Shown one piece after another: positions 8,134 to 58,630 of a stretch of DNA of 64,000 nt (within the stretch, counting starts at the first letter, position 1; each line of letters opens with the position of its first letter). The notes beneath the pieces were generated by a model that saw only the letters and a program-made list of their open reading frames with translations, had not been told where the DNA came from and did not search any database. The position numbers and the translations under genes are program-made. Source of the DNA: Brasenia schreberi (lineage: Eukaryota > Streptophyta > Magnoliopsida > Nymphaeales > Cabombaceae); assembly GCA_036023115.1 (NCBI GenBank), contig JAYKKT010000074.1, forward strand, positions 8,206,501-8,270,500, given 5' to 3'.

Positions 8134-9096
8134 ATGAATAACAGGATGCTGCTAAATCCACAGCATCCAGAGTTTCACCTCGAGTGGGCACTAGCCAATC
8201 TCACAACAACGTTCTTCAAATGCACAAGATGGCAGGTAGAAGAAACCACTGATCCATTCACTTGCCCTTACCATTATTACTGCGACAGCACCTACGCCGG
8301 AAATTATCCAGCCTCGGTTGATCTCACGGTTCTGTTCCTCTCGGCAGTGTCCTATCTGCTAACTGTAGGTTTTGCAGTGACAGAGGTGAGATACATCCGG
8401 CAACAACCTGGCCGGAGATACTGGGTGCCTTCTGGTCCCTTCATCCTCCCTCTCATCCTCCTCTGCTTGGCGAAGGGTCATAGAGTCGATACTGTTTTCC
8501 CACTTTCCTTCACTGCGCCTGCACTGCTACAACTCGTACATGTATCTGCGCTTGCCTTTGCGAACCCACCTGCTGCATCTCTTAAGTCAATCTTTCTCGA
8601 GGTCTCAACGATTTCTGGCATCCTGCACGGCAGCCTGTACGTGGACTCTGTAATCTTGCCTTACTACACCGGATTGGAGGCACTGGTGTCATCGACCTTC
8701 TCCGGGGAGTGCACTTCATGTGTCTGCCGCAAAGAAGCTCTGACAGTGGGTGGAAAGTATATTCCTTATCAAGGATGGTCAGCAACAATGGTATCAATTG
8801 CCGGTATTTTGTGTGTGAGGCTGGCATTTGGTGTATACAACAAAACAGGCAAAATGGCCACTACAAGTAAACTAATGCTTGAAGGCATGGCCTGGTTTAT
8901 GTTGACGAAGGATAATGTGCGCCTCGTAGCAAACTCCACGGAAGGTCCACTTGTGGAAAAAGCTGCTTGTCGAAGCATTTCTCTGTTGATATGCCTGCTA
9001 CTCTTGAAGAGGTTCTGTAATCTAGTAAGCAGCAGAAAGCAATCATTGGACATGAAAACAGAAGCAGGTCTACCACTCACCCACAGAGACTATTGA
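8134..9096 (+). CDS. Plant multi-pass membrane protein, unknown function
   Basis: A single-exon frame of 320 codons. The start has good context (GCGAAGATGAAT) and no better upstream ATG. Hydrophobic segments lie at roughly residues 62-82, 102-113, 122-144, 214-233 and 281-294, so this is an integral membrane protein. The N-terminal part contains HPEFHLEWALANLT and three cysteines (C30, C44, C50); a second cysteine cluster is at C193, C196 and C198. I do not recognise an enzyme motif and give no function. It reads toward the RPF1 copy on the other strand, whose stop is about 270 bp beyond this stop. A decayed copy with stop codons at 48,800-49,490 shows that purifying selection has kept this copy open. 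Real gene: confident; function: unknown. Confidence 0.8.
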   Translation: MNNRMLLNPQHPEFHLEWALANLTTTFFKCTRWQVEETTDPFTCPYHYYCDSTYAGNYPASVDLTVLFLSAVSYLLTVGFAVTEVRYIRQQPGRRYWVPSGPFILPLILLCLAKGHRVDTVFPLSFTAPALLQLVHVSALAFANPPAASLKSIFLEVSTISGILHGSLYVDSVILPYYTGLEALVSSTFSGECTSCVCRKEALTVGGKYIPYQGWSATMVSIAGILCVRLAFGVYNKTGKMATTSKLMLEGMAWFMLTKDNVRLVANSTEGPLVEKAACRSISLLICLLLLKRFCNLVSSRKQSLDMKTEAGLPLTHRDY

Positions 9097-9364
9097 AGCA
9101 TCCTTTTACACATCAAACTTTTGTTGTAAATTGCATTTTATTATGAATTTTGCTTGTGTAACATTGCCGTTTGAATCAAAGGCATAATACATCCTCGTGA
9201 AAAGATACAAATCGTGTTAAACAAGACCCAAAAGATTGGTCGGTGATCTTTCTGTGTGCATGAGATGTAACGCATTACTATGTCACAGAAGGTTGCTATT
9301 GCCAATGAAGCCCGAAATGCTATCCAGGATATATGGCTGTTCAACAAATGGAAGCTGCGCGTTA

Positions 9365-12300
9365 TCACAGGAAGAATCGCCTGCGGCTGGTGTCCATCTC
9401 CGGCTGTAGTAATGAAAACAAAGGCTATGTAAGGTCCCAGAGGTAAATAAAGAAACAAAATTGCAGCTTGGTGAACTACTATTACCAAAATCTTCTCAAA
9501 AAGAGCTACCAGCACAAAAACACATTACCTTGTGAACCCACTCATATTCTCCACTTTTGCTATCAAATGTTCCATACTGCAGGCTAACAAGTTTCAATGT
9601 AAAGCGAGGACCACACTCCTACAAAAATCCCAAAGTTTAAAGATTACGAAGAAACAAATGGGTCAATTAAGTCAGATACGAAAGAAAAGAAATTTCAAAG
9701 GAAAAATGTCATGATAGTCTCACATGTTCCTTTTATAAATAGGGTTATTTTATATTAATGTATTAGAATCCGTAGAAAAAATTCCTTGATTCTTGCATTT
9801 CGACTAAATTGAAATAGCTAATAGTTTCGTTCATTGGTATACTGCTAAATTGGAATTGAAAATCCAACCCTATTCAAATAGTTCCTTATTGATGCCTTAC
9901 CAAAAGGACTGAGTAAAAGAAAAACACATTTTTGGATTTTAGAATTAGAGTTATTAGTCTTTTTTATGTCATTTCGTATCGTACAATTCCTTTTTTTTGG
10001 GATAATTTACCCGCAAGGGGTCTCGGATAAATGGATCAGTACTAATAGTTCCATTTTCTCTTGGATTTGAGAAGAATTTTAAAATGGATTGCAAACTATG
10101 TGGAAATTTTATTGATAAATTTCTTAAAAGATGAAAACATTGGGACTCGATCAGTAGGAAGAAAATTATAGAACATGTAGTTCTTTGGGATTTAACATTA
10201 TCTGCAGATATGACCAAGAGAAAATAGATCAGAATGGTGACTACGACCCATGTACTCAACGCCATCTAGAGTGTGGAAAGGCTTGGTTTTGCTGCAATCA
10301 ACGACAGGGATGTGCTTTCTGTTCCACAAAGTTGGCCTCCCGCAGGCATCATTCATCAGCCAATGGAAAGTGAATAGTCTTAGTACATCAAGGATCATTA
10401 AGCCTAGGAAAACTATGATCCAAGACAACCACGCCAGATTCTATTCCTCAGAACGCCAGCCTCATCCAAAGCCAGCCTTAGCAGAACAAGACAAAAATGA
10501 CGACTGAAGGACCCGAAAGCAGGTCTGGCCTAAAAACGTTCCTAAACCCACAATGGGTACTGGTTTTATATGCTTTGGCATCCAATTGTGATGGAGTGGA
10601 ATGAAGCAGAAGCATAATTGTGACTGAAAAAGATAAATTGTATTCCTTGCAGCCACGCCCCACTAACTCCGTACAGTTCATATCAATAGCAAAGTTGATC
10701 CTCGAAGTGCACCGAGTGTATAAGGTTCCCTCACCATTCCCCGTCCAGTTCCAGTCATATACATTATGCAAATCGCAAGGGTTCTATTAACTTTGGAATT
10801 CCTTACGCATGACATAGTTGATATCAAATTTAGCTTGTCCAACCACTTGTATACATCTTCTGGACATTATTCAAGTCCTAATGATCGATTTATAGTGTTC
10901 CAACACTATGCTGACAAATTGCCAAAACTTTTCATTAAGAAAATTTGAAAAAGAAAAATTAAAATGTGTAGGGAACAACCGTTACTCTTCAATAAAATAG
11001 CAAAAGAATTTAAGGCAGAATTATTTATTAAGAGATAATTAAATAAGTGAAAGTAAAATGTTGAACCTGAAGCCGAATAATGAGGTTGTCACCAGATATT
11101 TTCTTCAACTTTTTAGCTCCATCCTTTGGTGGGTTCTTATTCTCCTTTTCTCCAAAAATGTACCTGCATATGAAGAAAAGTCATTAAGAAATGAAAGGTT
11201 AGTCTTACATGTGCATAACAATGGTCACAAGAGCAAATAAATAACCTGTGATAACGAAAGAATATAAAATCTGGCTGGTTGTGAAAGGACACAACTTGCC
11301 GGCCACGAAAGTTTGAATCTTGGGGGAAAAGTGATGTAATCAACCTGAAAATCACAAGCATCCAAAACCAAAATCACAAAAGTACAAATCTGATTTATTC
11401 AGAAAGATACATACTTGAAATAGCTGATATTCTGAAAGTCGAGAAGAGAAAATCGGAGAAAGTACACCTTGCAATACCATCACCTAGATGTGTTGTAAAG
11501 TTTGCTAGTATCAACTCTGGCTTATGACTGGTTGGATTTCCATGATTCTGCATACAAAAACGAATTAATCTCCACTACTTCTGTGTGTGCATGAGCATGA
11601 GAGAGAGAGAAGTGGATGTTTCAATTATAAATAATGTCTTAGAAGCATGTGCACCAAACAATGAAGAAACGAGTTTTATACCTTACTATTAATAGAACAT
11701 ATCCAAAAGGACAAGAATGTCATAGATACAACCGGTGTTATCTGTATCGCACATGGTGCAATATATATCATATAGTGAAACGCCACGATAGATACAAGAC
11801 TTTGTATTGCATTATACAAAGTATCGTGTCGTATCGTGCGATATGTAACCGTATCGCACCGCGTTTTTATGGGTTTTTGGCTTGTGTTCATGACTCTCCA
11901 AGGCTCCCTCCAGTGGCTCTCCGCCTTCTTGGTGTTTAAGGCTTGAAAAAAAGTGCTCTACGATGTTCGTGAAAGTCACACAACTCGGATTGTGGTATAT
12001 TTTTTGTGTTTTTCAGAATTTTGTATTTGTATTTGTTGTTTTTTGGTATTATTTATAATTTTTTTTAAATGACAAAATATGAAGTTATGAAGTGTGTGGA
12101 TATGATTTTTATTACAATCGTGAAGTGGGAGACACTCTATTTGATTGTTATGTGAAAATTGAGAATTTATAAAGTGATTTTATTTTCATATTTTTTAGGA
12201 GATTAAAGTGTTCAATTGAGATGACAGGAAGGGGTGTTAGGGACTCCCAATCTTAGTCTCATGATCCAGCATGACAATGGGGTACAACAGTTAAGAGAAA

Positions 12301-15300
12301 TAGATTGAAGATCAAATGTTTGTTTTATGATAAGGTGGTTAGTGGTGAAATTTCATGATTGAAACATCACCTAACAGAGACTAAGAAAGAAGTTGCTCCT
12401 TCTATGGGCAGAGTTAGAAAATTGTTAGAAGCTATTAAATAGCAATGTATGCACATGATTGAGAGCATACATGAGAGGAAACAATAGAAGGATTATTTAG
12501 AGATGTTTGAGGAAGAGGATGATTATGCTATTGAATTGAGTGATAGTATTCCTTCTGACGGTAGAACAGAGGTTGATAGTAGTAGTTCTCGACCATCAAC
12601 CAGGAGAAAGAGGATTATTGAAGATTTTGAAATTGGAAGTGGTAGAAGATGAATGAGTAGAGGAAGAACTTCTTCTGGCATACAATCATTTTTTTTCTCC
12701 TAGCAATACACATGGTGCTCAACCTGAAATTCATGTTGTTATGGCTTCAAAGCAACTGCAAGAGCAAGCAGACCTTGCAAGGGGTAGATAGTTTTACGAT
12801 GCATGCATTCAATTTAATGCATTAAACAATTTTCATTTTCAAGTAATGGCAGATGCAATTGCTAATATTGGTCGAGGATACAAGATACACTCTTATCAGA
12901 AATTGAGAGAAAAGTTATTAGATAAGATTGTCCTTCAAGTGTAAAAAATATTGTTCGACTTTTAGAGAGTCATAGAAGGAGCTAGGATACACTATCATGG
13001 CAGACAGATGGACATATAGGCGAGGAAGAACTTTGTTAAACTTTCTTGTCTACTGTCCTAAAGGACTTATGTTTTTTTAGATCTCTAGACATGTCAAAGG
13101 AGAGGCATACTACCAAGATCCTAAGGCAAGAGTTAGATAAGGTGATATCTGAGGTTGGGCTAGAAAATATAGTCCAATTCATTACAGATAATGCAACTAG
13201 TTATAAAGCAGCTGGGAAGGAGTTAGTAGATACTTATGAGACTTTCTATTGGACACCATGTGCAGCCTATTGTTTAGATTTCATTCTTGAGGATATTGGT
13301 GAGATGGATGAGATAAGGGCAGCAACTGGGTGTTGCCAAGATATCACCAAATTTATCTACAACCATGCATTTGTATTATGTATGATGAGGAGATATACAT
13401 ATAGTGCAAAGCTCTTTCGTACAAGTGTAACCCGGTTTGCAACTAATTTCTTATCTATAAAGAGCATTATGAGACAAAAGCAAGCCTTAAAGAGAATATT
13501 CTCCTCAAATGAGTGACAATAATTTGTAGAGTTTCTTCAAAATAAAAGAAACAAAAAAGTTAAATGAGATTTCAGAGATATTTTGGAATGCATGTGTTAG
13601 ACTATTGAGGATTACATATCATTTAGTGAAGGTTTTGAGATTAGCTGATAGCGAGGAGAAATCATATGTGGGTTATCTTTATTAAGTCATGAATAAGGCA
13701 AAAGAAACCATTAGAAGTAATTTCAATAGAAGAAAGAGGGATTATATGCTTGTGTGGAACATTTATAGATAATAGATAGAACAAACAATTATATCAGCCT
13801 ATTGATACAACAACATATTACCTAAACCCAACATTCAGGTACCCAACAAGCTTTAAAAGGGACAGTGAGGTTAATCGAGACATCATTGAAGTGACGGTGA
13901 GGTTAATCAAGGCATTATTGATAGTATAGATAGATTAGTCTCTGATTAGAGTAGAGCAGATGCTAGAGATGGAAATCTATGATAATGCTCTTCACTTATG
14001 AGTTTGCCTGTAGCAATCCACAACCGCTCTAATATGTGCTAAGGTAAACTGTTTATCTTTGTATTTAAGTTTCTTAGATCTTATATTTATTGTGGACTAA
14101 GTCCCTGATATTTATTTTTTCTACAGATGTTTGGTGGAATAGGTTTGGAAGTGATTGCCAAAACCTTAGAGACTTTGAAGTAAGAGTTCTGAGTTAAACC
14201 TATAGTGCAACGGATTGTGAAAGGAATTGGAGTGTCTTTAAACACATCCACACAAAAAAGCGTAACAGGTTGAAACATAAGCGGCTCAATAACTTAGTTT
14301 TCATCCGTTATAACATACGGCTTCGACTGAGGTAATCTTGTATTAGTTACTACTTAATGATTCAATTTAATATTTTGTTTGACTTCAATTATTAATGTTA
14401 TTTACTAATTACTTATCTTTCCTTCTTATAGGCAATCAAAAAAGTTAAATAGAGAAGAAAACCAATTTGATCCAATAAGTTTGGATAATTTTGATATATT
14501 AGAGGAGTGGATTATGAAAGATAATGAAGAAAATGCACCCCTAACAGAAGAATACATTGCATGGATTAATTTAGAAGGAGCACAACAACATCGTCAAAGA
14601 GTAAGATTTTGATTTTGAAGCAGAAGGTGGTGAGAAACTTCAACAAGGAGAAGATGAAGATTATTTAGTTGAATTGAGAACGGAACTGAATTCATCTGCA
14701 TCATTATCGGCAAATAACTGCATGTACATGAATCAATCAATGTGTCACCCTAGTAACAACTAACACAACCCAAGTCCAACCAAACAAAACTCAAAAGGCA
14801 CTACAAAAAAACAACTCAGCAAAGAAAACATGAATGAAAGAAGTAATTAGTGCAGAAACCTCTTCGTCATCAGGTCTACAAATGGTCTCCTCGGCCTCCC
14901 TTGTATTTTCGATAGTGTGAGGGATCTTCCTTGGCAGGGGCTGCACGTTAAGGCACAAAGACATGCATAGACATTACACAATTAGATTAATCCTGCAATT
15001 CACTCACACACACACAGAGACACACGCATAGAGAGACAGATAGGGAATAGAGCAGTACCCCTTCGCCAAGCTCAAGGGATTTCTTCTCGGCAGCATCACG
15101 GGCCTTTACACGCTTCCTCTTCTCGATCTTCTTGTCACGTTTGAGCTTGGCGTGAATGGAGGACCTCTTCTCCTTGTTCTTGATGGACGAAGGAATGATC
15201 GTCCCTTTCTTCTTCTTCTTCTCCACCTCGACCTTTTCTCTTCTTCATCTCTTCTACAATGTCGTCCGCAACGCCCTGTTCGAGCTCCTTTCTCTTCTTC

Positions 15301-15335
15301 TTCGTCTTCTTCATGTCAGCATCCTCGGACATCAT
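9365..15335 (-). pseudogene. RPF1 (Brix-domain) pseudogene, copy A
   Basis: Exons recognisable by alignment to the intact copy: exon 1 15,335-15,059, exon 2 14,940-14,860, a piece of exon 3 ending at about 14,673, exon 7 11,547-11,468, exon 8 11,344-11,246, exon 9 11,163-11,067, exon 10 9,618-9,529 and exon 11 9,403-9,365. Exons 4-6 are absent. Exon 1 is 277 nt against 273 in the intact copy and carries a one-base insertion that shifts the frame before the basic [10 protein letters not shown] region. Exon 8 still encodes [18 protein letters not shown] and all remaining splice sites look normal. With both a frameshift and a missing Brix core it cannot make RPF1. A short 3-prime transcript is possible but unsupported. 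Confidence 0.9.
11732..14672 (+). mobile_element. Degraded hAT element, 3-prime truncated
   Basis: The left end, CGGTGTTATCTGTATCGCAC, resembles the terminal repeat of the intact element at 19,981-23,423. The transposase relic follows on the plus strand: start ATGACAGGAAGGGGTG at 12,221, BED-finger remnant, DUF659/hAT core (best preserved at 13,046-13,516, with the CAAYCLDFILEDIGE region), C-terminal dimerisation segment at 14,127-14,330 and the acidic tail to about 14,670. Stop codons and frameshifts are frequent. The sequence stops within the last exon at ...GATTATTTAGTTGA and joins RPF1 exon 3 sequence directly, so the right terminal repeat has been deleted together with RPF1 exons 4-6. 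Both transposase introns sit at the same positions as in the intact element. Confidence 0.9.
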
Positions 15336-15399
15336 TGTGGACTGAGTCCGTTTCCACAGCAACGTGTTATAAATAGTGATTAGCGGGCTGTTCCCTAGC

Positions 15400-17500: not shown

Positions 17501-17536
17501 TCTTCTCTTAACTCGTCAATCCGTCTGTGAATCATC

Positions 17537-17649: not shown

Positions 17650-17699
17650 CTGCAAAATTGTTGAATCAGAAGTTCAGTTGCTGTTTCAGTAGCAGATAA

Positions 17700-20319: not shown

Positions 20320-22817
20320 TTACAAATTGTAATCAGGATCATCAACTAAATAATCTTCATCTTCTCCTTGTTGCAGATCCTCATCATCATCAGCCACGCC
20401 CACACCTTCTTCTTCAAAATCAAATTCTTCATCTCCATAATGTTGTTGCGCTCCTTCCAAATTAATCCAGGCAACGTCTTCTTCTGTTAGGAGGGCATTT
20501 TCTTCAGTGTCTTCCATAACCCAATTTTCTAATATATCAAAATTATCCAAACTTATTGGATCGAACTGACTTTCTTCTCTATTTACTTTTTTTAATTGCC
20601 TACGACACAAACAAAGATAAACAATTAGTAAGTAATATTAACAATTGAAAACTGAAGTTAAATAATATCGAATTGAAAATTTGAAAGTAATACAACATTA
20701 CCTTTCACGAAGGCGCATGTTACAACGAATATAAACCAAATCATTAAGCCTTTTGTGTTCCAACCTGTTGCGCTTTTTTGTATGGATGTGTTCAAAAACA
20801 CTCCAATTTCTTTCACAACCTGTTGCACTACAGGTTTGGCTTAAGACTCTAACTGCAAAATCTCTAAGGTTTGGACAATCACTTCCAAACCTGTTCCACC
20901 AAACATCTGTAAAGAAAATATAAACATTAGAGACATAATAATCCACAGTAATGTAAGATGGAACTTAAATATGAAAATAAACAATATACCTGGACGCATC
21001 GTAGAGCGGTTGCGAATTGCAACAGGCAAACCCATCAAGTGAAGAGCATTATCATATATCTCCATCTCTCGATGTATCGCATCTACTATGCTCTCATCAG
21101 GGACTAATCTGTCGATGCATTCAATGATTCCTCGATTAACCTCACCGTCCCTTTTGAAGGTTGCTGAGTACCTCAATGATGGGTTTAGATAGTAGGCTGC
21201 TGCATGAATAGGCTGATGCAATTGTTTATTCCATCTACTATCAATTATTTTCCACACGGGCACATAATCTCTTTTTTTTCCATTAAAGTTATTTCTGATT
21301 GCTTCTTTTGCCCTGTCCATGGATTCATAAAGGTAGCCCATAGATGGTTTCTCCTCGCTGTCAGCCAATCTCAAAACTTTCACTAAAGGACAAGTAATTT
21401 TCAATAATCTGATACATGCATTCCAAAATGAACTTCTAAAAACCGTTTCTGCAATCTCATTTAACTTTCTGTTCCTTCTGTTTTGTGGCAACTCTGCAAA
21501 TTGTTGCCACTCATCTGAGGAGAACATTCTCTTTAAAGCTTGCTTCTGTCTCACAATACTCTGTACAGATAAGAAGTTTGTTGCGAACCGAGTTGCAGCT
21601 GTGCGAAGAAGCTCTGCACCTTCTGTGTATCTCCTCATCATACATAAAACAAATGCATGGTTGTAAATAAATTTTGTAATATCTTGGCAACACTCAGTTG
21701 CTGCCTTTATTTCATCCATCTCACCGATGTCCTCGAGGATGAGATCTAAACAATGGGCTGCACATGGTGTCCAGTAGAAAGTCCCATAAATATCAGCTAA
21801 CTCCTTTCCGGCTGCTTTGTAGTTAGCTGCATTATCTGTAATCAATTGGACTACATTTTCTAGCCCAACCTCTTGTATAACCTTATCAAATTCCTCTCGT
21901 AGGATCTCTGCAGTGTGCCTCTCCTCTGACATATCTAGAGATCTCAAAAACATGAGTCCTTTAGGACAATATACAAGAAAGTTTAGCAATGTCCTTCCTC
22001 GCCTATCGGTCCATCCATCTGCCATGATAGTGCATCCTGTTTCCTTCCACGATTGTCTCAAAGTCGAACAGTATTGCTGCACTTCAATCACGGTCTGATC
22101 TAATATCTTCCCTCTCAACTTCTGATAAGAGGGCATCCTGTATCCTGGACCAATGTTAGCAATTGCATCTGCCATTGCTTGAAAATGAAAACTGTTTGCT
22201 GCATTAAATGGAATGCATGTATCATAAAACCATCTGCCCACTGCAAGGTCTGCTTGATCGTGCAGTTGTTCTGAAGCCATAGCAGCACGAATTCCTGGCT
22301 GAGCACCAGGTGTAGTGGAAGGAGGAAAGAACGAATGTATGCTAGAAGAAGAAGCTCTTCCTCTACTCCTTCCTGAACTTCCTCTTCTGCCACCTCCAAA
22401 GTCTTCAGATGCAACCCTCTTTCCTCTGTTAGGTGCTCGCGAACTGCTACTACCAATATCTGTTCTAGCATCTGAAGGCAAACTATCAGTGAATCCAACT
22501 CCAGTGGCAGTAGCATCATCAGCTTCTTCACACATCTGGAAATCATCCTTTTGTTGTCTCTTTTCCTGTATGCTCTCAATCATCTGCAAGCATTGCCATT
22601 TAATACCTTCTGGCACACTTCTAACTCTGCCTGTGCATGGAGCAACTTCTTTCCTGGTTCCTGCTAGGTGGTGTTTCAACCTTGAAATTCCACCACTAAC
22701 CACCTTTTCACAAAATAAACATCTGATTTTTAACCTTGAACCCTCAACTGGTATACCCCACTGCCATGCCGGATCATCAGACTTTGAATGAGAGTCTCTA
22801 CCACCCCTTCCTGCCAT
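20320..22817 (-). CDS. hAT-family transposase with BED zinc finger
   Basis: Cuts and rejoins the ends of its own element. Three exons: 22,817-20,990, 20,906-20,702 and 20,599-20,320. Their sum is 2,313 nt, an open frame of 770 residues. The N-terminal BED finger has CLFC at residues 33-36 plus His/Cys near 50 and 61. A low-complexity Ser/Arg linker follows (about 125-165), then the DUF659/RNase-H-like core with MADGWTD (D267), ITDNAANYKA (D328) and CAAHCLDLILEDIGE. The hAT C-terminal dimerisation region follows, with ATGCERNWSVF (Glu near 641) and THTKK-type basic residues. The last exon is strongly acidic. D267, D328 and the Glu fit the hAT catalytic triad. The degraded copy at 11,732 has the same introns, which supports the splice model. 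Confidence 0.93.
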
Positions 22818-23160
22818 CTCAATGAGTACTTTAATTCAAACAAAAACCTGAAAATAAAAGCACTTCGTAAATCCCCCAATCTTCAAATAACACTCAAATC
22901 GAGTGTCTCCCACTTCATGAATGCAATAAAAATCGTATACACACACTTAATAACTTCATATTTTGTCATTCAAAAAAAAAAACCCGAAATAACACAAAAA
23001 ACAATAAATATAAAGGAAAAAAAGGAAAAAAACATTAAAAATATACCTAAATCCGAGTTTGGAGGCTTGGACGGACACCGTAGGGCACGATTTTAGAGCT
23101 TTGAACACCAAGGAGGCGAAAACCGACTCTTAGGGAGCTTGAAGAACCCAAAAGGAGAGA

Positions 23161-23217
23161 GGAAACCCGCGAAAAATCGCGGGTTTCCCTCGGCCCGGGA
23201 CCCTTTATAAGGGTCCC
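23161..23217 (-). promoter_or_regulatory. Putative transposase promoter with hairpins
   Basis: On the minus strand TATAAA (23,209-23,204) is the centre of a near-perfect palindrome with arms GGGACCCTT (23,197-23,217). About 20 bp downstream is a perfect 12-bp stem with a four-base A/T loop (23,161-23,188; arm GGAAACCCGCGA). Both lie between the GTATCG array and the transposase start about 340 bp away. A core promoter and a structured 5-prime leader are plausible; expression itself is not shown by sequence. Confidence 0.5.
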
Positions 23218-23431
23218 AGGGCGTATCGCCCGTATCGTACGATACGGGCGATACGCACCGTATCGTGCGATACGGGCCGTATCGTACGATACGGGCCGTA
23301 TCGCACGATACGGTGCGATACGCCCGCACCTGCGATACGGGGGCCCGTATCGTATCGTGGTGGCCCACGATACGATACGTATCGCACCGTATCGTACGAT
23401 ACGGTGCGATACGGACAACACTGGCAGATGC

Positions 23432-24990: not shown

Positions 24991-24996
24991 ATTCTA

Positions 24997-25067
24997 TTGC
25001 CTGTAGTTTAGTGGTAGGAACTCTACGTTGTGGCCGAGAAGACCTGAGCTCGAATCCCAGCAGCCAC
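24997..25067 (+). pseudogene. tRNA-His(GTG)-like pseudogene
   Basis: The segment follows the plant nuclear tRNA-His pattern: CTGTAGTTTAGTGGTA (A box), ACGTTGTGGCC around the GTG anticodon, CTCGAATCCCAGCAGCCAC (B box and 3-prime acceptor strand). The acceptor 5-prime strand (TTGC) does not pair with the 3-prime strand, and the anticodon stem (CTACG against CGAGA) has two mismatches, so it is probably inactive or the head of a SINE. Confidence 0.7.
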
Positions 25068-25317
25068 AATTTGTGACGTTGTTGAAGTTGATCAGAAGTC
25101 GGGTTTTCCTGTTTCTTTCATTTTCTTTCTCGTCTCGTGTTGTTTGTTAGCTTAATCGGGTCCATCCAACTACGAGAAGCTTGTTTCGTTCCACACCACA
25201 CCCCTACACAACCGAGGCCACTCCTTTTCGCTTGCTTGAACTGACCTTAAACTTTACCCCTTTGGTACACCGTAGTTCTTGCCTTTGATACTTTGGCAAG
25301 GGAACTTGATTTCAAGT

Positions 25318-28145: not shown

Positions 28146-28534
28146 GAGAGAGAGGGTCATGCAAATAGTGATCAATATATGCATCCAGGAAGTGATACGA
28201 GAGAAGTATGATGGAGTTGTGAACAAGCATATAATGTATCATACAATTCATAGTTTTAAAATAACGTACAAAATAAGGAATTCCATGTAACAACACCATG
28301 CAAGAGCAGATAGATCAATAAGCAACAACATGGAAAGCAGTGCAAGTTTCTCTTTAAGTGGTTGAGATTTGTTGCATCTGTTAATATATGACTTAGTGGA
28401 TATACTGCATGTCTACTCTCTCTCTCTCTATATATATATATATAAGAGGTAACCGTCATGCAAGTCAGTATCATATAGAATCTTGGGACTTTGAGTGCAT
28501 GTGTGTGTATGCGTGTTTGAGGTTGGTTCAGATC

Positions 28535-40700: not shown

Positions 40701-42528
40701 GAGAGCAAATGTTTATGGCTCCAGGAAAGCAGAACAGCGGGAATTGTTTGCCAGTGGCGGCGGTGGTGTTTGCTGTGATGAACGTGCTGATCAAACAAGC
40801 TCTAGACGAAGGAATGAGCCGTTTCGTGTTGATTACGTATCGGCAATTTGTTGCGACGATCTTCATAAGCCCTATAGCTTACTATGCTGAGAGGTACTGA
40901 TAATCGGTATATCCGTCATACTTTGTCAATCTTCCCTTTCCACCAAAACACGTAAAGGTAAGGTGATTGCCTCTTTGACAACGTGCTACTTAGCCATTTG
41001 CGGTGTTGTTACTGTCTGAGAAAGTGGAAGTAGCGGATCAGGACACTTGCTTCGAAGAAAAAAAAAGGTGAGTCCCACATGCACGAGTTCATGTCTCTCC
41101 ATGATAATTTAAAATGGTCTCAGCAGCTGCATCAACAACGGTTTTTGACCCATGTCTGCAATATCTCATAGCCCGAGAAAATCTGTTTCCTAGTTAAAGG
41201 ATGCGTATGAATTATCCAATCAAGAACATAACTCTTGTCGAAATCTAGGCTCTCAACAGCAAAGTTAGCATGCACTTGGAACTCAAGAAAGTTGGTCACA
41301 AGACGGAAACCTTGGTCAATTTTTTTACTGCAAATGATAAGTTTGACTCCCAAAGGAAAAATTGGTATCTTCTCTCCATATATCATAGTGCAGGATCTGA
41401 TGTTTGATTTGATATATTATAATGTCTGGGAGCACTTGGTAGAGGAGAGTGCATACTTGTGGTCGAAAAGGAAAAGAAGGAGAATCATTTTGTTATTCGT
41501 GTATTTGTCTGAACCATGAAGACCATCCAAGGGAGCCTGCAAGAAGGGAAAGAGAACCGAGCAGCCAGCTCTTTTGTGACTCATGATCATCCACCTTGCT
41601 TGAGGTTTGATTAAGATGGGAACTGGAGTTGTGGGTAAGTGCCCTGCCCTTATACAGGGTCAGAAGCATTGCGCCGCTGACGCAGACTATCGTTCCCGCA
41701 ACCTTCAGCACTCCAGGCTTACTTTTGATGTTTAATCTTTCCATCCTGCAACCACCAATCCCAATTTGTGATAGATTGTGATTAGCATGATAACAAAAAT
41801 TCACACTCAATCAGAGGCGCTATCATGTGACACTTGAGCATAGGTATAGGTAAAACCTTCTCCGTGAGTGGAAAGATGGAAGACACAACGACACAGGCAT
41901 ATCTCCTCTTTCTAAAACTCCATGCAACGCTCTCATCTCCCTTCTCAGCTGCATTCAGTCCGCTGCTTTCACCTTGATCGTACACTGGGACCCTCCCTTG
42001 TGGTTATTGAGAGGAAAGCTACAATTTGTTACTGTGTAAGTCTCTACTGCTATATAACATGTCCTTTTTGGTTTTGAATACGTTCGGATTGAAATTTGTA
42101 GACACGCGAAAATTTTCACTCTGGGTTCTTAGGCCTCATGTGAACCTTTTCGTATGTCTAAGTCGCTTAAAGGGCGTGTCAGCTAGCTTACTCAAGCTAG
42201 CGAAGTAAGTTTTGAAAATATCTAACTTATGGGACGACTGTGGACAAGTGAACTCTTTTCGTCGCAGACCTTCTTGAACCGATGCTCAAGGGTCAATCTG
42301 TATGCTTAGAAAACTCGATTTTAAGCAAACATGACCTTTTTGAAAATATGCAAAGTGTTTGATTTGGTTTTAGTTTGTCTTCTTGCAGATTTTATCAACG
42401 TGGGATTTGCACGTTTCTTATGTCTTGGGTTTTCGTCAATTTAGGCATGTAGTTGTGTGCATCCAATGTTCAAGGTTACTTTGATGCAATATGCACCCTA
42501 TCTCGTGGTATGGCGGATATGCAATGCA

Positions 42529-45400: not shown

Positions 45401-46233
45401 TAACATGGGCTATTCAGGGGTTAGTGCTCAACTAATATTCCATATTAATTGAAGGTGACAAAAAGTTTGCACTGTGTTGTGTTGGGCTGCAGGGGGGGCA
45501 TGTGCTCTGGGATGGCATATATCATTATGGCGTGGTGTGTGGAAAAGAGGGGCCCTGTGTTCACTTCTGCATTCAGCCCCCTCATCCAAGTGGTTGTAGC
45601 CATCATCGAGGTCCTCTTCCTCCACGAGCAACTGCACCTGGGCAGGTGGGTCACCCCTCTTTCTCAAATTAATTTGAGATGTCAACAGATCCGAAGTCTA
45701 AGACCACACATTCTCTCTCACACACATAGAGAGAGAGAAAGAGAGAAGTAGATCCGAACAGTTAATGATTGTATCCTACATGAATTTTGATGTAAGAATC
45801 CACGGGCTGGTAGTTGCACCGAAACCCTTGTATGAAGCGCCGGAGTCAAGTATTTAGCTGACTTCTCCGGACGCCGTTGAGGTTAATTTGAACTTTGAAC
45901 CTAGTTGTTTGTGCTAAAGTTATTGTAGAAAAAGAGCATTTGAAGGATATGTGAACTTTCTACAAGAGGAAAAAACAGATATTTCAATTTTCAAAAATGT
46001 GCGGGACACGACCAGTTTTGGGTCGATTTATTGGCCCTTTTATCTCTCTTCTCCTGCCACTGTGATAGGCTTACCATTTAAAACAAGCTAAGAGCTTTTA
46101 TTTCTTTGGCAGCATATTGGGTTCTATCATCATTGTAATCGGGCTTTACATGCTGCTGTGCGGGAAGAGCAAACAGCACGAGTGCTTGCTGCCGAAACAG
46201 ATACAAGTCATTGATGACAGCACAGCAGTATAA

Positions 46234-47180: not shown

Positions 47181-47218
<38 letters not shown>

Positions 47219-48080: not shown

Positions 48081-48089
48081 ATCTGAACC

Positions 48090-48799: not shown

Positions 48800-49490
48800 T
48801 GTGTAGGTATTACCCCCTTTTGAAACTTCCAACTTGTCTCCTCCATCTCATCCTCCTCAGCTTGGCGAAGGGTACTGTTTTGCTAGTTTCCTGAACTGCA
48901 CCTGCACTGCTACAACGCATACATGTATCTGCGCTTGCCTTTGAAAACCCACCCGCTACATCTCTGAGGCCAATCTTTCTCGAGGTCTCAACGATTTCTG
49001 GCATCCTGCACCGCAGCCTGTACGTGGACTCCGTAATCTTGCCTTACTACACCGTATTGGAGGCACTGGTGTCATCGACCTTCTCCGGGGAGTGCACTTC
49101 ATGTGTCTGCCGCAAAGAAGCTCTAACAGTGGGTGGAAAGTATATTCCTTATCAAGGATGGTCAGCAACAATGGTATCCATTGCCGGTATTTAGTGTGTG
49201 AGGCTGGCATTTGGTGTATATAACAAAACAGGCAAAATGGCCACTACAACTAAACTAATGCTTGAAGGCTTGGCCTGGTTTATGTTGATGAAGGATAATG
49301 CACGCCTCATAGCAAACTCCATGGAAGGTCCACTTGGAGAAAAAGCTGCTTGCCGAAGCATTTCTCTATTGATATGCATGCTACTCTTGAAAAGGTTCTG
49401 TGATCTAGCAAGCAGCAGAAAGCAGTCATTGGATACGAAAACAGAAGCAGGTCTACCACTCACCCACATAGAGTATGATGCATCCTTTTA
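48800..49490 (+). pseudogene. Membrane-protein pseudogene, copy B
   Basis: Aligns to codons ~100-320 of the intact gene at 8,134-9,096. The first ~100 codons are missing. A small deletion removes the AGAGTCGATA region, a TGA follows in GTTTCCTGAACT, and GTATTTAGTGTG creates a TAG where the intact copy reads TTG. The 3-prime part remains open (49,198-49,491) but has no start context. The spacer to RPF1 is retained. Confidence 0.9.
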
Positions 49491-49743
49491 GACATCAAAG
49501 TTTGTTGTTAAATTGTACTTTATTATGAATTTTGCTTGTGTAACATTGCTGTTTGAATCAAAGGCATAATACATCCTAATGAAAAGATACAAATCGAGTT
49601 AAACGAGGAGCCAAAAGATTGGACGGTGATCTTTCTGTGTGCATGAGATTAACGCATTACTATGTCACAGAAGGTTGCAATTGCCAATGAAGCCCGAAAT
49701 ACTATCCAGGATATATGGTTGTTCAACAAATGGAAGCTGCGCG

Positions 49744-52700
49744 TCACAGGAAGAATCGCCTGCGGCTGGTGTCCATCTCCGGCTGTAGTAATGAAAACAA
49801 CGGCTATGTAAGGTCCCAGAGGTAAATAAAGAAACAAACATGCAGCTTGGTGAACAATACGACCAAAAGCTTCTCAAAAAGAGCCACCAGCACAAAAACA
49901 GATTACCTTGTGAACCCACTCATATTCTCCACTTTTGCTATCAAACGTTCCACGCTGCAGGCTAACAAGTTTCAATGTAAAGCGAGGACCACACTCCTAC
50001 AAGAATCCCAAAGTTTAAAGATTAAGCAGAAACAAATGGGTTAATTAAGTGACAGGTACAAAAGAAAAGAAACTTCAAAAGAAAAATATGTCATGATAGT
50101 CTCACATGTTCCTTTTATCAATATAAATTTCTTAAAAAGTGAAAAGACATAGGGACTCGATCAGAAGGAAGAAAATTATAGAACACGTAATCCTTTTGGA
50201 TTTGACATTATCTGCAGATATGACCAAGAGAAAATAGATCCATGAAGGATCCAGCAATGCCTCATTTACATGAATAGGAATGAATATCAGCCAACAAACG
50301 CTTGGTAAGAAGTAGAGTGGAATTGTGTCACTCGACGCTATCTTAGGACATAAGACCAAGGATAAGAGAAGAAAGGATAGGCATGCAAGAACATCTGATC
50401 TACAAGGGTCAAAATATATCTAAATATGTTTTTCTAAAAAAAGTTGAAATTTGAAATATTACACCGTGTCATACGATACACACTGTATCATAGTGTGTCG
50501 TATGATACGGTTGCAATAAATGTATTTTTTATACAATATCGGTTCAGATACCAAAACACCTGTATCGTGTATCATATCGTATGACACGGTTTGATTTTTT
50601 TAACATTGGTCTGGCCTAACAGCATCCCTAAAACCTACAATGGGTACTTGTTTGATGTTTTTGCATCCAAATGTGATGGAATGGAATGAAACAGAAACAT
50701 AATTGTGACTGAACTCAAACATACCACGTGACTGTAATTTAAGATAACATGTAGCACTCAGTCCCATCTTCGTATTTTCACCCCACGCACCCACTAACTC
50801 CTTACGGCTCATATCAATAGCAAAGTTGATCCTCGAAGTGCACCGAGTGTATAAGGTACCCTCACCATTCCCCGTCAAGTTCCAGTCATATACATTATGC
50901 AAATCGCAAGGGTTCTATTAACTTTGGAATTCCTTACGCATGACATAGTTGATATCAAATTCAGCGCTTGTCCAACCACTTGTATACATCTGCTCAACAT
51001 GTTCTGGACATTATTCAAGTCCTAGTGATCAATTTATAGTGTTCCAACGCTATGCTGACAAATTGCCAAAACTTTTCATTAGGAAAATTTGAAAAAGAAA
51101 AATTAAAATGTGTAGGGAACAACCGTTACTCTTCAACAAAATAGAAAAAGAATTTAAAGCACAATTATTTATTAAGAGATAATTAAATAAGTGAAAGTAA
51201 AATGTTGACCTGAAGCCGAGTAATGAGGTTGTCACCAGATATCTTCTCCAACTTTTTAGCTCCATCTTTTGGTGGGTTCTTATTCTCCTTTTCTCCAAAA
51301 ATGTACCTGCATACGAAGAAAAAAGTCATTAAGAAATGAAAATTTAGTCTTATATATGCATAGCAATGGTCACAAGAGCAAATAAATAACCTGTGATAAC
51401 GAAAGAATATAAAATCTCGCTGGTTGTGAAAGGTCACAACTTGCCGGCCACGAAAGTTTGGATCTTGGGGGAAAAGTGATGCAATCAACCTGAAAATCAC
51501 AAGCATCCAAAACCAAAATCACAAAAGTACAAATCTGATTTCTTCAGAAAGATAGATACTTGAAATAGCTGATATTCTGAAAGTCGAGCAGAGAATCTGA
51601 GAAAGTACACCTTGCAATACGATGACCTAGACGTGTTGTAAAGCTTGCTAGTATCAACTCTGGCTTATGACTGGTTGGATTTCCATGATTCTGCATACAA
51701 AAACGAATCAATCTCTACTACTTCTGCGTGTGCATGAGCATGAGAGAGAGAGAGAGAAGTGGATGTTTCAATTCTGAATCATGTCTTAGTGGCATGCGCA
51801 CCAAACAAAGAAGAAACGAATCTTACACCTTACTATTAACAGAACAAATACATAAGGGCCAGAACATCATAGATCCAACACTCGGCAGAAAATCTTAGTG
51901 TATTAAACAGTCTACACTCTAAAATCATTTCTCAATCATGGATGTGGAATTTATTGGATAATTTGAAGTTAGTGAATCCAGGAGAAAGCATTCACATGTA
52001 TGTAGCCTACCAACTTGAAAGAGTCGGTCACCTTTATTTGAATGAAGCCAAACAGGGAAAACAGAAACGTGAAACACCAATTGCCGGACTATTTCTTCAA
52101 TGCAGCAATACAACAGGAGGGAAACATAGAACATGCATAAATCCAAAGGTAATGGATCAATAGGCATGTGACAATCGACTAAATATAAAGTGGCTATCAC
52201 AAATGTGAAAAATCAATCCAAACAGTCCTAGTTTACGCTTCTGGGTAATGCTAAAATCACTAAAAGTAGGATAGGAGAAGACTCAACATTGCAGAGGGAA
52301 ACCCCAACTATATGAATAATAAAATTAGATATGTGGTACTATCAATAGAACCCCACTACCACACTTAAGAACTTCAGAAGCTCAGGAAATGCAAAGTATT
52401 TCTGTTTACGGCAACTAAAACGTTGTATACTGTTCAGACATGTCAAAGGATGCAGATGACAATGACATACAAAAGTTATACATAGGTGTTCAAGAGTTTA
52501 AACAACTACAACAACTACTAAGCCTTTTCCCATACTAGACGGGGTCGGCTACATGGATTCTTTCTTTCCACAGACCCCTATCGTGTGCCATGTTAGCAGT
52601 TAACTCCCAATAAGCTAGATCATTCTTTATTGTTTCTTTCCAACACTTTTGTGGTCGTCCTCTACCTCTTTTAATACTTTCTAAATTTAGTTTTTCTAAC

Positions 52701-55700
52701 CTTCTTACTGGTTCTTCTTTTGATCTTCTTTCTATATGTCCAAACCATCTTAAACGATATTCTCTCATTTTATCATCTATTGGTGCCACTCCTAATTTAT
52801 TTCTAATAACCTAATTATGTATACGGTCTTTTCTTGTATGATGATTAATTGCCCAACACTCAGAACCATAAAACATGGCAGGCCTAATTGCTGCTCTATA
52901 ATATTTACCTTTTAATTTTAATGGTATCTTCTTATCACAAAGAATATCTGATGCTCCTCTCCATTTTAACCAACCAACATTAATTCTATGTGTAACATCT
53001 CCATCAATTCTTCCATCACTCTGAAAAATTGACCCTACGTATTTAAAACTTTCCTTTTGGGGAATGCAATGTGTGTCAATTTTAATTTCTATGTCCTCTG
53101 AAGTAACCAAATGATCAAACTTACATTCCATATATTCTGTCTTTGTTCTACTAAGTTGGAGACCTTTGCTTTCTAATGTTTCTCTCCATAGTTCCAATTT
53201 TCTATTAACTTTTTTCTTAGACTCCTCTACTAATACAATGTCATCTGCAAATAACATACACCAAGGTACTTCATCTTGAATATATTTTGTTAACTCATCC
53301 ATCACCATTATAAATAAGTATGGACTTAAAGTTGATCCTTGATGTAACCCAATATTAACTTCAAAGAGGCATGTCGTTCCTTTATGAGTCCTCACACATG
53401 TTTTTACACCAACATACATGTCTCTTATAAGGTTAATATATGTCAATGGGATACCTCTTTTTTCCAAAGTTCTCCAAAGAACATCCCTCGGTACCCTATC
53501 ATAAGCTTTTTCTATATCAATAAATATCATGTGAAGGTCTTTCTTTTTTGCTCTAAAATGTTCCATAAGACATCTCAAAAGGTGAATCGCTTCAATAGTA
53601 GATCTGCCTGGCATGAATCCAAATTGGTTCTCTGTTATACTATACTTGTCTTAACCTACGTTTGATAATTCTTTCCCATAATTTCATAGTATGACTCATT
53701 AACTTGATACCTTGATAATTCGCACAATTTTGAATGTCTCCCTTGTTCTTATATATGGGTATAAGTGTACTTCCTCTCCATTCCTCGGGCATCTTTTGGT
53801 TTTTCCATATTTCATTAAATAGTCTTATGAGCCAAGTGATTCCTGTTTCTCTTAGTATTTTCCAAACTTCTATAGGAATATTATCTGGTCCTACCGATTT
53901 ACCACCCTTTATATGTTTAAGAGCCTCTTTCACTTCATTCTTTTGAATACGTCAATAGAAATTGTGGTTTATATACTCTTATGACTTGGCTAAATCTCCT
54001 AAACTAATACTAACATCTTTATTTTCATTAAAAAGATTATAAAAATAGTTTTTCCATCTATTTCTTATATCATCATTTGTCACTAAAATTTTTTCATCAT
54101 CGTCTTTTATGCATCTAACATAATTAAGATCTTTAGTTTTCTTATCTCTAGCCCTAGCTATCCTAAAAAATATCTCTTTCACCCTCTTTTGAGTTGAGTT
54201 TTTTATATAAGTCTTCCCAAATCTTAGCTTTTGCTTCACTAACGGCCTTTTTTGCTTCCTTCTTTGCTTTCTTATAAGCTTCTAAAGTTTCACTAGTTTT
54301 CTTAGCATAATGTAATTTGTAACATGTCCTCTTTGCCTTGATTTTATTTTGTACTACTTCACTCCACCACCAAGCTTCTTTTTGTGCCGGTACACCTCCC
54401 TTAGATACCCCTAACACATCTTTCGCCACTTTCCTAATATGTATAGCCATATTGTTCCACAGATCACAGGGTGTGCCAACATAATTTCAAACATCGACTT
54501 TTTGTTTAAATATATCTTCTTTCTCGCTTTTGAGGTTCCACCATTTAGTCCGAATAGCTCGATGCACTCTTTTCTTCTTTGTCCATTTTTTTATTTGTAA
54601 ATCCATAACTAAAAGTCGATGTTGGGTGTTTAAGCTTTCTCCTGGAATTACCTTACAATCTTTACAACATGCTCTATCTTTTTTTCTACGAATAAAGTAA
54701 TCAATTTGTGTTTGTGATAAGCCACTCTTATAAGTAATTAAATGTTCAATCTCATTTTTTGAAAATTGTATTGACTATAAAGAGATCAAATGCCATAGCA
54801 AAATTTAAAATCTCCCTACCTTCCTTGTTTATATCCCCAAAACCAAAGTTTTCATGAATCCCTTGATATCCTAATGCCTCTTTACCGACATGTCTATTTA
54901 AATCTCCTCCTAAACAAATCATCTCCCTTTGTGGAATCTTTTGAAACACCTTATCTAACTCTTCCCAAAAAACTGTCTTTATACTATATTCTAGTCCTAC
55001 TTGGGGTGCGTAAGCACAAACTATATTCAAAACCTCTGCTCCTAACACTAATTTCAACGTCATGATTCGGTCACCATATCGTTGTATGTCTACTACACTC
55101 TCCTTTAAATCCTTATTTATGATAATACCAACTCCGTTTGAAGCCTTTTCTTTACCTGTGTACCATAATTTAAAACCTGTATCCTCTATCTCTTTTGCTT
55201 TTTCTCCAACCCATTTTGTCTCTTGTAAACATAGAATATGAATCTTTCTCCGAATCATAGTATCTACCACCTCCATTAGCTTACCCGATAATGTTCCGAT
55301 ATTCCAAGAACCAATACGAATCTTATTATCTAGGACTAGCTTCCTTACCCCCCGCATCCGTCCATAATCAAAATACGGAGACCCTCTCTGAAAATTTTTC
55401 ACTACGTTCGGGCGACAATATAGCGGGACTAACTTCTTTACCCACACCCGTCCATGATGTGGGAACCCTCTCTGCAATTGATTAACTACATTCGGGCGAA
55501 AATGTAGTGTATGAGTTTGTGCCATCAAAATGCACTTGCTTGAAGTCAATCTCAAAAGAAGACCATAGAAGGACTGACAGATGCAAAAGATAGAAAATCA
55601 AATACTGCAAAGACAATAATGTACATGTTCTCCAAATAAAGGAATTAAAAGTTGTACTTGGGACAATCCCAACTATACACAATGTTCCAGTGGTACCACC

Positions 55701-58586
55701 ACCACTTCAAACAAAAGGAATGCTCACCTTTATATCTTTTCGCAAGACCAGCCTTGAAAGCTTAAAATGAGCAGTAGGTCCATTAGGAAGTCCAATGATC
55801 AGAAGTGCATCTATAAAAAAGCAGAACCAGACATCAAATATAATGTCCAAGAACAATATAGTTCCACAAATTCTTTCATAAACCGATGGTAACAGCAGAA
55901 CTAAACAAAATCAACAGAAAATTGTATTGAGCTGGAGGGACAGTTAACGATAAAAAAAGAGTACAGATGGAAGCAGGGTATACTTGTGATAAACCGCAAA
56001 ACATTAGGTCGTTAGCTATGTGGAAGAAACTAACAAAGATAATATATGCGAGATTGCAGAACATTAATAGCAATAATATAACATAAGAATTTTATAAGAT
56101 GCACATTGGCTCTGCAGTAAGCACTAAGCAGAACCATCACAGACATGCTGATGCAAACCATAAGTCACTGTCGTCCCTCAAACCTAGACAGAGATGCATG
56201 AATCATGGATGTGTCCAAATATAAACAAATGCTCCTCCAAACCTACAAATTCATACTATACAAATATTTCGTGTTAAAAGTAATAAATGAACAGTATAAG
56301 TTACACAGTAACAAATGAGCAATGGTACAACAAATTGAAATCCTGATTTGCCCCAAATGAGATCTAAATAACGGAAACTACTAACCTGGCTCCTTGCGAT
56401 TGGTGTGGACCACAACAACTGAAGTGAAATCTCTATTCCTTGCATATTCTGTAATCTATACAAAGGGGGGAAAGAGAAGATATAAACTCCAATGAGTAAC
56501 CAAACTAATGTGCAAGGAACATTAATAGAAGATGAAAGCTGATACCACTACCTATGCACCAAAGCACCAAGTTAGTTCAGAATCAGACAACATCAGTGAC
56601 ACCAATTTAAAGCAACAAAAAGAGTTTCAACTGCATTGCAAAGCGAATACCTTGTTGGTGCACCTACAACATTGTATTTTGGAAGGCTATTGTCATAATT
56701 TGCAAACAACATTACTAGCTTGAAAGAAAATAAAGCTTACCTTTTTCAAATCATAAGTTCCCCGTTCATGATAATGAGCATTGGGAATAACTGTTAATAG
56801 TTCTTCAATAAATGCAGGTCCTCTCTGTAAATATGTAAATGTGGTACCCATTAAACTTGCATGTGAAAGTTTATTTTAATACTATATTCTCTTGCATCTA
56901 TCATACAAATGGTAGGAGCTACAGCAATAAGCAAAAATGTTATACATATCACATAGATAATGGGTCACAAATTGTTCTAGAAAGAATCATATCGATCATA
57001 AATTTGGAAAAGTAAAAAAGACGGGAGACAAAAATGACAAAACCAAAAGCAGATACTTCCTGTAAACAAGTATGAAAGATAAAACCAAGTATTTTAGGAT
57101 TTTCAGCTTATACATATGCTTCAATCAATGTCAATACTCTTAAAAGATTTAGGAGGCTGCACAAAGGACTATTTAGCAATCATCGATCAGTTTCTCAGGC
57201 TATCAGAAGAGAAGAAGAAATTTATTTGTGAACAAGGAAAAGCATTTCCCAGGCACGTGAATAGCCTGACCGTGAAACAACAATGATTAAGACATTGCTA
57301 AAAAAAATAACCATTATTCATTTTTTTACCTTAACTTAATAATGTAAAACAAATTGAAAAAGACAAGTTGTTTCAGAAAAGATTTGGTCAAACTCCAGAA
57401 CTATTGGATAGACTAGCCAATTGAGTTCTTTTCATCATGAGATCTATCCATAAAGCAAAAAGTATTTAGGTACCCACGTTGGCTACCAAGGAATTATCTT
57501 TACTTTTCCTTTTCAGGTATCTATTATCATTTCACTGAATGACAACGCGACGCCAAATTAGACTTCGTGACTCCCTTAGAAGTACATAAAAGCAGGGTTT
57601 TGTGTACGTGTACGATTATAAGAGGGTTAAAGTTCAATGATTGCTCCCAGTACCTAAAGGGAAAAAAGAAAGCATTTCCATCCCTTGCCCTGGGGTAGAA
57701 ACGGAAGGAAGAGGACCCAAAAACGTCTACGAGCATTTATCTTTGTCAAGTAAAACCAAATTCTTAACAAATCAAATTTGGTTAGGCTATCCATTATCAA
57801 TTGAAATTATTGAAAAGGAGGACAAAAACAAAATACGGAGACCATTGCATCTAAAAAATGAAATAAAATAGAAATTAGCAACAAGAACGAGAAAGAGTGA
57901 AGCACAATAAAGAGGATTCCTACAGTCGAGTGAAATCTCGATGTCGTGATCAATGTCTTCGGCGTACGCTCCCGATTGAGAATGGAATTGAATTCATCTG
58001 CACCATTATCAGCGAACAACTGCATATACATGAATCAATCAATGCGTCACCTCAGTAACAACCAACACATCCCAAGTCCAACCAACCAAAACTCAAAAGG
58101 CACTACAAACAAAACAAAGCGAAGAAAACATGAATAAAGGAATTAATGCAGAAACCTCTTCGTCGTCGGGTCTACAAGCAGTCTCATCGGCCTCCCTCGT
58201 ATTCTCGATAGTGCGAGGGATGTTCCTTGGCGGAGGCTGCACATTAAGACACAAAGACATGCAGAGACATTACAAGATTAGATTAATCCTCCAATTCACA
58301 CACAGAGCCGCACCTCTTCGCCAAGCTCAAGGGCTTTCTTCTCGGCAGCGTCACGGGCCTTTACACGCTTCCTCTTCTCGATCTTCTTGTCACGTTTGAG
58401 CTTAGCGTGAATGGAGGATCTCTTCTCCTTGTTCTTGATGGACGAAGGGAGTGTCGTCCCTTTCTTCCTCTTCTTCTCTACCTCGACTTTCATATTCTTC
58501 ATCTCATCTACCGTGTCATCTGCACCGCCTTGCTCACACTCCTTTCTCTTTTTCTTCGCCTTCATGTCAAGATTGTCGGCCATCAT
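49744..58586 (-). CDS. RPF1: Ribosome production factor 1, Brix-domain protein
   Basis: RPF1 acts in the nucleolus in assembly of the large (60S) ribosomal subunit and processing of its rRNA. Eleven exons: 58,586-58,314, 58,236-58,156, 58,019-57,924, 56,824-56,741, 56,455-56,386, 55,810-55,728, 51,690-51,611, 51,489-51,391, 51,306-51,210, 49,996-49,907 and 49,782-49,744. They total 1,092 nt, an open 363-residue frame, close to the usual RPF1 length. The N-terminus is Lys/Arg-rich ([19 protein letters not shown]; about residues 50-85), probably nucleolar targeting. The [13 protein letters not shown] region follows, then the Brix domain (about 140-350): [75 protein letters not shown] and [18 protein letters not shown]. 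It ends [12 protein letters not shown]. Two ATG codons stand together at the start (58,586 and 58,583). Intron 6 (about 4 kb) holds a same-strand LINE. Confidence 0.95.
50463..50590. mobile_element. MITE-like insert with 16-bp inverted ends
   Basis: ACCGTGTCATACGATA at the left end and TATCGTATGACACGGT at the right end are a perfect 16-bp inverted pair enclosing about 96 bp. The words TATCG/CGATA resemble the subterminal array of the local hAT family. The corresponding place in copy A lacks it, so it is an insertion after duplication or a deletion there. I see no clear target duplication. Confidence 0.6.
52501..55512 (-). mobile_element. RTE-clade LINE, near full length, decayed
   Basis: About 3.0 kb. 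The order on the minus strand is a 5-prime region with two ~95-bp related monomers (55,375-55,510, each with a TTCGGGCGA word), an APE-type endonuclease (54,752-55,555: [21 protein letters not shown]), a Lys-rich connector, then reverse transcriptase (53,640-53,933 and 52,811-53,614: [20 protein letters not shown]) and the C-terminal region with [11 protein letters not shown] (52,535-52,789). Frameshifts and stops split the frame, so it is not active. The 3-prime tail is TTGTTGTAGTTG-like, the hallmark of plant RTE. GAGTTT occurs at both edges (52,494 and 55,513), a weak candidate target duplication. Confidence 0.9.
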
Positions 58587-58630
58587 TGTAGACTCAGTCC
58601 ATTTCCACCACAACCAGTGTTGTTCCCCCC

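Follow-up and report, generated by a model that had tools for sequence, protein, structure and literature searches.

Probable relocation of RPF1 away from a membrane-protein gene by partial segmental duplication in Brasenia schreberi

In a 64-kb stretch of Brasenia schreberi DNA (contig JAYKKT010000074.1; the whole stretch is called the window below), we found a block with sequence of a membrane-protein gene and a convergent RPF1 gene that is present twice. Self-comparison of the window placed the two copies, A and B, in collinear order at 8,444-15,368 and 48,839-58,621, ~40 kb apart (about 34-40 kb). Within the two blocks, the membrane-protein frame is intact in A alone and the RPF1 frame is intact in B alone. 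RPF1 was probably relocated from A to B by a partial segmental duplication, after which the RPF1 copy in A died. The blocks and genes are as follows.

8444..15368, no strand assigned: Block A, duplicated segment broken up by a hAT-like element and by inserts found in A only (blastn against B)
48839..58621, no strand assigned: Block B, duplicated segment with a LINE-like element (long interspersed nuclear element) in RPF1 intron 6 (blastn against A)
8134..9096, plus strand: membrane-protein gene, intact, 320 amino acids (aa) (homologs, alignment, hydropathy); the duplicated block leaves out its first ~310 bases
48839..49491, plus strand: membrane-protein pseudogene, ~104 codons missing, 12-bp in-frame deletion, stops at 48,892 and 49,192
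49744..58586, minus strand: RPF1, intact, 11 exons, 363 aa (exon borders, Brix domain, structure match)
9365..15335, minus strand: RPF1 pseudogene, exon 1 frameshifted, exon 3 halved, exons 4-6 absent

The duplicated block and its two genes

Sensitive blastn of A against B gave four collinear pieces: A 8,444-9,741 with B 48,839-50,123 (91.9% identity), A 10,115-10,230 with B 50,123-50,240 (90.7%), A 10,522-11,732 with B 50,608-51,879 (88.5%) and A 14,673-15,368 with B 57,975-58,621 (81.5%). These pieces bear out a sequence-only reading of the same DNA, which had described a duplicated block with a membrane-protein gene and a convergent RPF1 and had proposed this alignment; by piece, the identity is 81.5 to 91.9%. 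Beyond the block limits the neighbourhoods of A and B show no likeness, even with 7-base words. The left edge of the block falls inside the membrane-protein coding sequence at about codon 104, and the right edge lies ~37 bp upstream of the RPF1 start codon. In A the genes stand tail to tail, with 268 bp between their stop codons. Searches with Rfam and ARAGORN found no feature bearing on the block.

The membrane-protein gene is open in A (320 aa), as the sequence-only reading had stated, and its N-terminus, encoded outside the block, aligns with the eight homologs that were aligned. No Pfam family was matched by the protein. A homolog search found 269 sequences at E≤0.001 (the best 120 of the 269 listed); those of the 120 that carry a name are mostly annotated as transmembrane, hypothetical or uncharacterised proteins, and where a species is named it is a flowering plant. 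A Kyte-Doolittle scan with a 19-residue window showed five hydrophobic stretches above 1.5, the last two overlapping. Victoria cruziana is the closest named relative among the matches listed (70%). The homolog P0001 and the Victoria protein are identical at 289 of 328 residues, and the Brasenia protein agrees with these two at 74% and 72%, respectively, which probably places it outside the group that they form. The copy in B is dead as claimed: the N-terminus is absent (~104 codons), with nothing matching upstream of about codon 104 by blastn, and two in-frame stops are found (TGA at 48,892-48,894 and TAG at 49,192-49,194). Neither the 5′ end of the membrane-protein gene nor its upstream region has left a remnant that we could find near B.

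RPF1 proteins work in pre-60S ribosome assembly. The RPF1 gene in B is fully open, with 363 aa in 11 exons and GT-AG at every border, in agreement with the sequence-only reading. Its product contains a Brix domain (E 7.8e-30), and comparison with solved structures gave RPF1 as the best match (1.3e-90; IMP4, 3.3e-35). Within the Brix superfamily it is assigned to RPF1, with IMP4 and BRX1 more distant. The closest named relative among the matches listed is from Nymphaea thermarum (79%), which together with the Victoria match of the membrane protein places the plant in or near Nymphaeales. The RPF1 copy in A is dead. It has a frameshift near 15,232 in exon 1, its frame closes after 66 residues, and exon 3 is cut after 45 of its 96 bases. 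From that cut the loss runs through to intron 6, most of which is gone; it takes in introns 3-5 and exons 4, 5 and 6, and these exons have no counterpart in A. The sequence-only reading had the frameshift right and gave the loss as exons 4-6; the loss is half of exon 3 together with exons 4-6. A 373-bp insert at 9,742-10,114, with TTTTAT at both ends, is found in intron 9 of the A copy only.

Transposable elements lie in both blocks and directly beside block B.

11735..14672, plus strand: hAT-like element inside the RPF1 pseudogene, joined directly to exon 3, its own 3′ end lost; left border from comparison with B
52501..55597, minus strand: LINE-like element in intron 6 of the intact RPF1, with reverse transcriptase and endonuclease pieces; limits approximate
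58738..64000, minus strand: Copia-like element whose long terminal repeat (LTR) starts ~150 bp upstream of the intact RPF1 start codon (by eye); it reaches the window end

A fuller hAT-like element is present at 20,342-23,402 and has a 664-aa open frame with zf-BED and DUF659 domains (20,844-22,835). The element in the RPF1 pseudogene is 78.2% identical to it over 11,859-14,672 and 67.5% over 11,744-11,859. By this nucleotide identity to the BED/DUF659 copy, the inserted element appears to be a hAT-like transposon. The promoter of the intact RPF1 must be short or borrowed, because the Copia-like element begins ~150 bp upstream of the start codon. Promoter-like motifs in B are TATAAA (-73) and a telo-box-like AGGGTTT (-80). 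Upstream of the A copy, no telo-box is found within 1.5 kb, and TATAAA and TATTTA lie at -106 and -40. Across the whole window AGGGTTT or its reverse is found 15 times, so that a single site is weak evidence. The Copia-like element also carries extra LTR-like repeats at 62,951-63,173 and 63,771-64,000, which are 90% alike.

Divergence between the copies

To the left of the hAT-like element, 178 of 2,602 sites differ between A and B (6.8%), and to the right 78 of 645 (12.1%; Fisher p 2.7e-5). The non-coding distance on the left is 0.081. The ratio of nonsynonymous to synonymous divergence (dN/dS, or Ka/Ks), which the sequence-only reading had suggested computing, was obtained from Nei-Gojobori counts for each live copy against its dead counterpart: it is 0.39 for RPF1 (267 codons) and 0.62 for the membrane-protein gene (211 codons). 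For RPF1 exons 1-3 the value is 0.27 (133 codons) and for exons 7-11 it is 1.10 (134 codons; 3 synonymous and 12 nonsynonymous differences). Because such pair values mix a live and a dead branch, homologs were used to assign changes to one copy or the other.

The dead copies carry most of the damage at conserved residues. Among RPF1 positions with agreement in at least 115 of 120 homologs, nine departures are found in A and two in B (binomial p 0.065). For the membrane-protein gene, conserved positions were those with the consensus in both Nymphaeaceae sequences and agreement in at least 100 of 120 homologs; six of them are changed in B and none in A (binomial p 0.031). Five further positions (122, 124, 152, 166 and 269) reach the 100-of-120 level and were left out since the Nymphaeaceae do not carry the consensus there. 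At 152, 166 and 269, A keeps the Nymphaeaceae state and B departs from it; at 122, B matches the Nymphaeaceae and A does not; at 124, neither does. When all 28 amino-acid differences of the membrane-protein pair are assigned, 14 fall clearly in B with one more likely there, five fall in A with three more likely there, and five are undecided.

Synonymous differences are concentrated in RPF1 exons 1-3 (22 of 79.2 sites, vs 3 of 86.3 sites in exons 7-11; Fisher p 1.4e-5). This excess may be due to gene conversion or to a local mutation hotspot. A separate, older origin of exons 1-3 of the A copy was considered and rejected: introns 1-2 differ at 10.8% of sites (23/213), and non-CpG intron divergence shows no significant difference between the two sides (83/1,242 vs 19/205, p 0.19). 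CpG decay alone was also rejected as the cause, as non-CpG exon sites still differ at 36 of 341 vs 9 of 379.

Origin of the two copies

The B locus holds an intact, intron-bearing RPF1, the A locus holds its dead remnant, and the two are alike over a bounded segment only. The membrane-protein N-terminus, common to homologs, is present in A alone, and the pair is adjacent in other plants (see below). We infer that A is the parental locus. An old tail-to-tail pair of the membrane-protein gene and RPF1 would have stood at A, and the segment from about codon 104 of the former to ~37 bp upstream of the RPF1 start would have been copied to B, ~40 kb away. The truncated membrane-protein gene in B would have been dead on arrival, never functional, and stops would have accumulated in it. 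RPF1 would then have been redundant for a time, until the A copy was killed by the frameshift and the hAT-like insertion, followed by a deletion. In the simplest order, the hAT-like element inserted into intron 6 and a later deletion ran from inside the element into exon 3. The B copy, presumably expressed, would have survived with a new or short promoter next to the Copia-like LTR. A partial duplication from A to B is favoured because one event yields both edges and no separate loss of the membrane-protein gene is needed. Transposed genes have been described as moved without their regulatory sequence (PMC4700967); the likeness to the present case is the right block edge only ~37 bp before the RPF1 start.

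The sequence-only reading had proposed reciprocal loss of a convergent gene pair after segmental duplication. The duplication is borne out, and so is one surviving gene in each copy. Reciprocal loss presupposes that both copies once held both genes complete, and homology to the membrane-protein gene in B begins at about codon 104, at the block edge. Because that edge falls inside the gene, the B copy may never have been complete and may have received just the 3′ two thirds. Under true reciprocal loss, the duplication, or a move from B to A, would have taken in both genes in full, and later losses would have removed the membrane-protein 5′ end from B and RPF1 from A. The promoter-like motifs of RPF1 in B, absent in A, speak for this history, since B may then be the old home of RPF1, and so does the complete membrane-protein gene at A. 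It requires, however, an additional deletion that ends inside the membrane-protein gene exactly at the homology edge, and no remnant of the 5′ end or upstream region lies near B. We consider it unlikely, though worth keeping in mind. An assembly in which two haplotypes were wrongly joined, named by the sequence-only reading itself as one of two findings that would overturn it, would also leave one contig with two similar copies. The likeness is confined to the block, however; neither the flanks nor the intervening sequence repeats in register, and the copies differ at 7-12% of sites and carry different insertions. A misjoin was rejected on the unlike flanks and intervening sequence and is extremely improbable.

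Several observations weigh against the relocation from A to B. If A is parental, the RPF1 gene with the old promoter died and the copy that lost the old promoter lived. The promoter motifs in B weakly favour B as the old home of RPF1. The uneven divergence on the two sides of the hAT-like element may mean that one simple event is not the whole story. The tests of bias at conserved sites are small, and for the membrane-protein gene the bias is weaker over all amino-acid differences. Gene order gave little help here: a 181-aa open frame at 27,603-28,145 has two relatives only, one of them in Nymphaea colorata, too few for reading gene order.

It is possible, but somewhat doubtful, that the RPF1 sequences in A and B form an extra, relaxed lineage and that a normal main RPF1 is found elsewhere in the genome; this is compatible with the other explanations. 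The B protein has 19-29 unique residues vs 5-10 in Nymphaea thermarum when measured with eight outgroups (ratio ~2 to 4; p<0.05 in seven of the eight). At 95%-conserved columns it departs eight times, where the median is two and four of 121 sequences reach at least eight. For the membrane-protein gene, none of 18 comparisons gave a significant excess (lowest p 0.16), and therefore the lineage is not fast in general. In Brasenia, 51.7% of 1,614 BUSCO genes are duplicated (PMC10356934), which was counted in favour of another RPF1 copy. Against an extra lineage, RPF1 in B is fully open with correct borders across 11 exons, human or yeast RPF1 has some of its unusual residues as the normal state, and at fully invariant columns it departs once, as 21 of 121 sequences do at least once. 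The RPF1 homologs were also selected by similarity to the B protein.

Changes common to A and B predate the duplication. Over the 176 codons of RPF1 exons 2, 3 and 7-11 that are readable in A, changes at firm-consensus positions kept by Nymphaea comprise six shared by A and B, three in B only and three with a third state in A, with no change in Nymphaea only and seven positions marked as not readable in A. One of these seven, codon 59, lies in exon 1, where A and B do not differ at that codon. When exon 1 codons 46-91 are added, seven changes are shared by A and B and three are in Nymphaea only. These counts are suggestive, and not proof, of an RPF1 excess before the duplication. The fast evolution of RPF1 is naturally read as a sign of redundancy, either before the duplication or after it. 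The part that may precede the duplication hints at another RPF1 copy, which would run against the sequence-only statement that each gene survives exactly once.

The rest of the window contains repeated pieces at 28,530-30,721 and 32,634-36,797, at 41,496-41,810 and at 45,449-45,748, which presumably resemble WAT1-type transporters; the only domain match is a weak one to EamA, below the cut-off, at 45.4 kb. A tandem repeat at 4,673-5,064 consists of two 196-bp copies that are 94% alike and rich in AT and GA runs. At 24,997-25,068 there is a weak Rfam tRNA match (30 bits, cut-off 29), for which ARAGORN makes no call.

Old linkage of the pair and its meaning

Linkage of the two genes in other plants was read from locus tags in the two homolog tables (best 120 rows of each search; some species are multi-copy). 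Among the matches listed, six eudicots have consecutive or nearly consecutive tags for the membrane protein and RPF1 on same-sized contigs.

Diplodiscus: Ditri11bG0131200/0131100
Reevesia: Repub17cG0135400/0135300
Cornus: LOC132276869/867
Ulmus: UlMin_021848/849
Jatropha: JCGZ_25121/25122
Rhamnella: RR18046/18045

Juglans, Mangifera and Cephalotus share only a same-sized contig for both genes, and 11 species have differently sized contigs (Cinnamomum, Magnolia, Telopea, Tripterygium, Actinidia, Malania, Vitis, Clitoria, Neltuma, Acacia and Spatholobus). A same-sized contig was thus found in nine of the 20 species compared. Nelumbo, Xanthoceras, Rubroshorea, Ziziphus, Salix viminalis, Anthurium and Elaeis were left out, as their matches apparently came from different assemblies or had no contig. 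Orientation left aside, the two genes were apparently already neighbours in the common ancestor of Nymphaeales and eudicots, and some other lineages would since have lost the adjacency. This linkage, which looks ancient, is what is new here. Literature searches on RPF1, MEE49 and Brix, on reciprocal loss with tandem and segmental duplication and on convergent pairs returned nothing on this pair among the matches listed, which is no proof of absence. One could speculate that some function kept the pair linked from water lilies through to eudicots (with the stops in A so close, the 3′ ends might overlap), that the link was dissolved here by partial duplication and promoter replacement of an already fast RPF1, and that later gene conversion made the divergence uneven; we regard this combination as improbable.

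The sequence-only reading had further called the arrangement a textbook route to reciprocal-loss incompatibility, which is overdrawn. Against a single-block haplotype only one gene can be lost, the copies are tightly linked, and the reported cases need different copies silenced in different genotypes. If A is the parent, crosses between the present and the ancestral arrangement may give recombinants that lack RPF1, never the membrane-protein gene; such recombinants would be rare because a crossover within about 34-40 kb is needed. By simple arithmetic, random loss acting on two genes has an even chance of leaving one survivor in each copy.

Known systems resemble the present one in part. In the text of PMC8042742 as cited here, incompatibility in A. 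thaliana involves HPA, FOLT, TIM22 and TAD3, with different copies silenced in different genotypes. The likeness is that the function is kept by one of two copies; there, however, the same duplicates are dead alternately between genotypes, whereas in the present single genome it is two different genes that are dead, one in each block. For SG3/SG3i (At4g30720) of Arabidopsis thaliana, the passages used from PMC2869320 describe a working copy at a new place after duplication and paralogue loss, as in B; that system has two states between accessions and a growth phenotype in crosses, whereas ours is one genome and ~40 kb. Fractionation, as the cited section of PMC2893956 presents it, likewise returns the genes of a duplicated stretch to one copy, but after genome duplication, whereas here a small segment was copied and one gene was perhaps never fully copied.

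It is concluded that this is a real but ordinary case, probably of gene movement by duplication and loss, and not evidence of a breeding barrier. It would offer a clear example of a gene leaving its old neighbourhood, by a bounded copy that is followed by a dead remnant and a live copy. The adjacency, if confirmed with orientations, would make these two genes a marker pair for asking why some neighbours persist across flowering plants.

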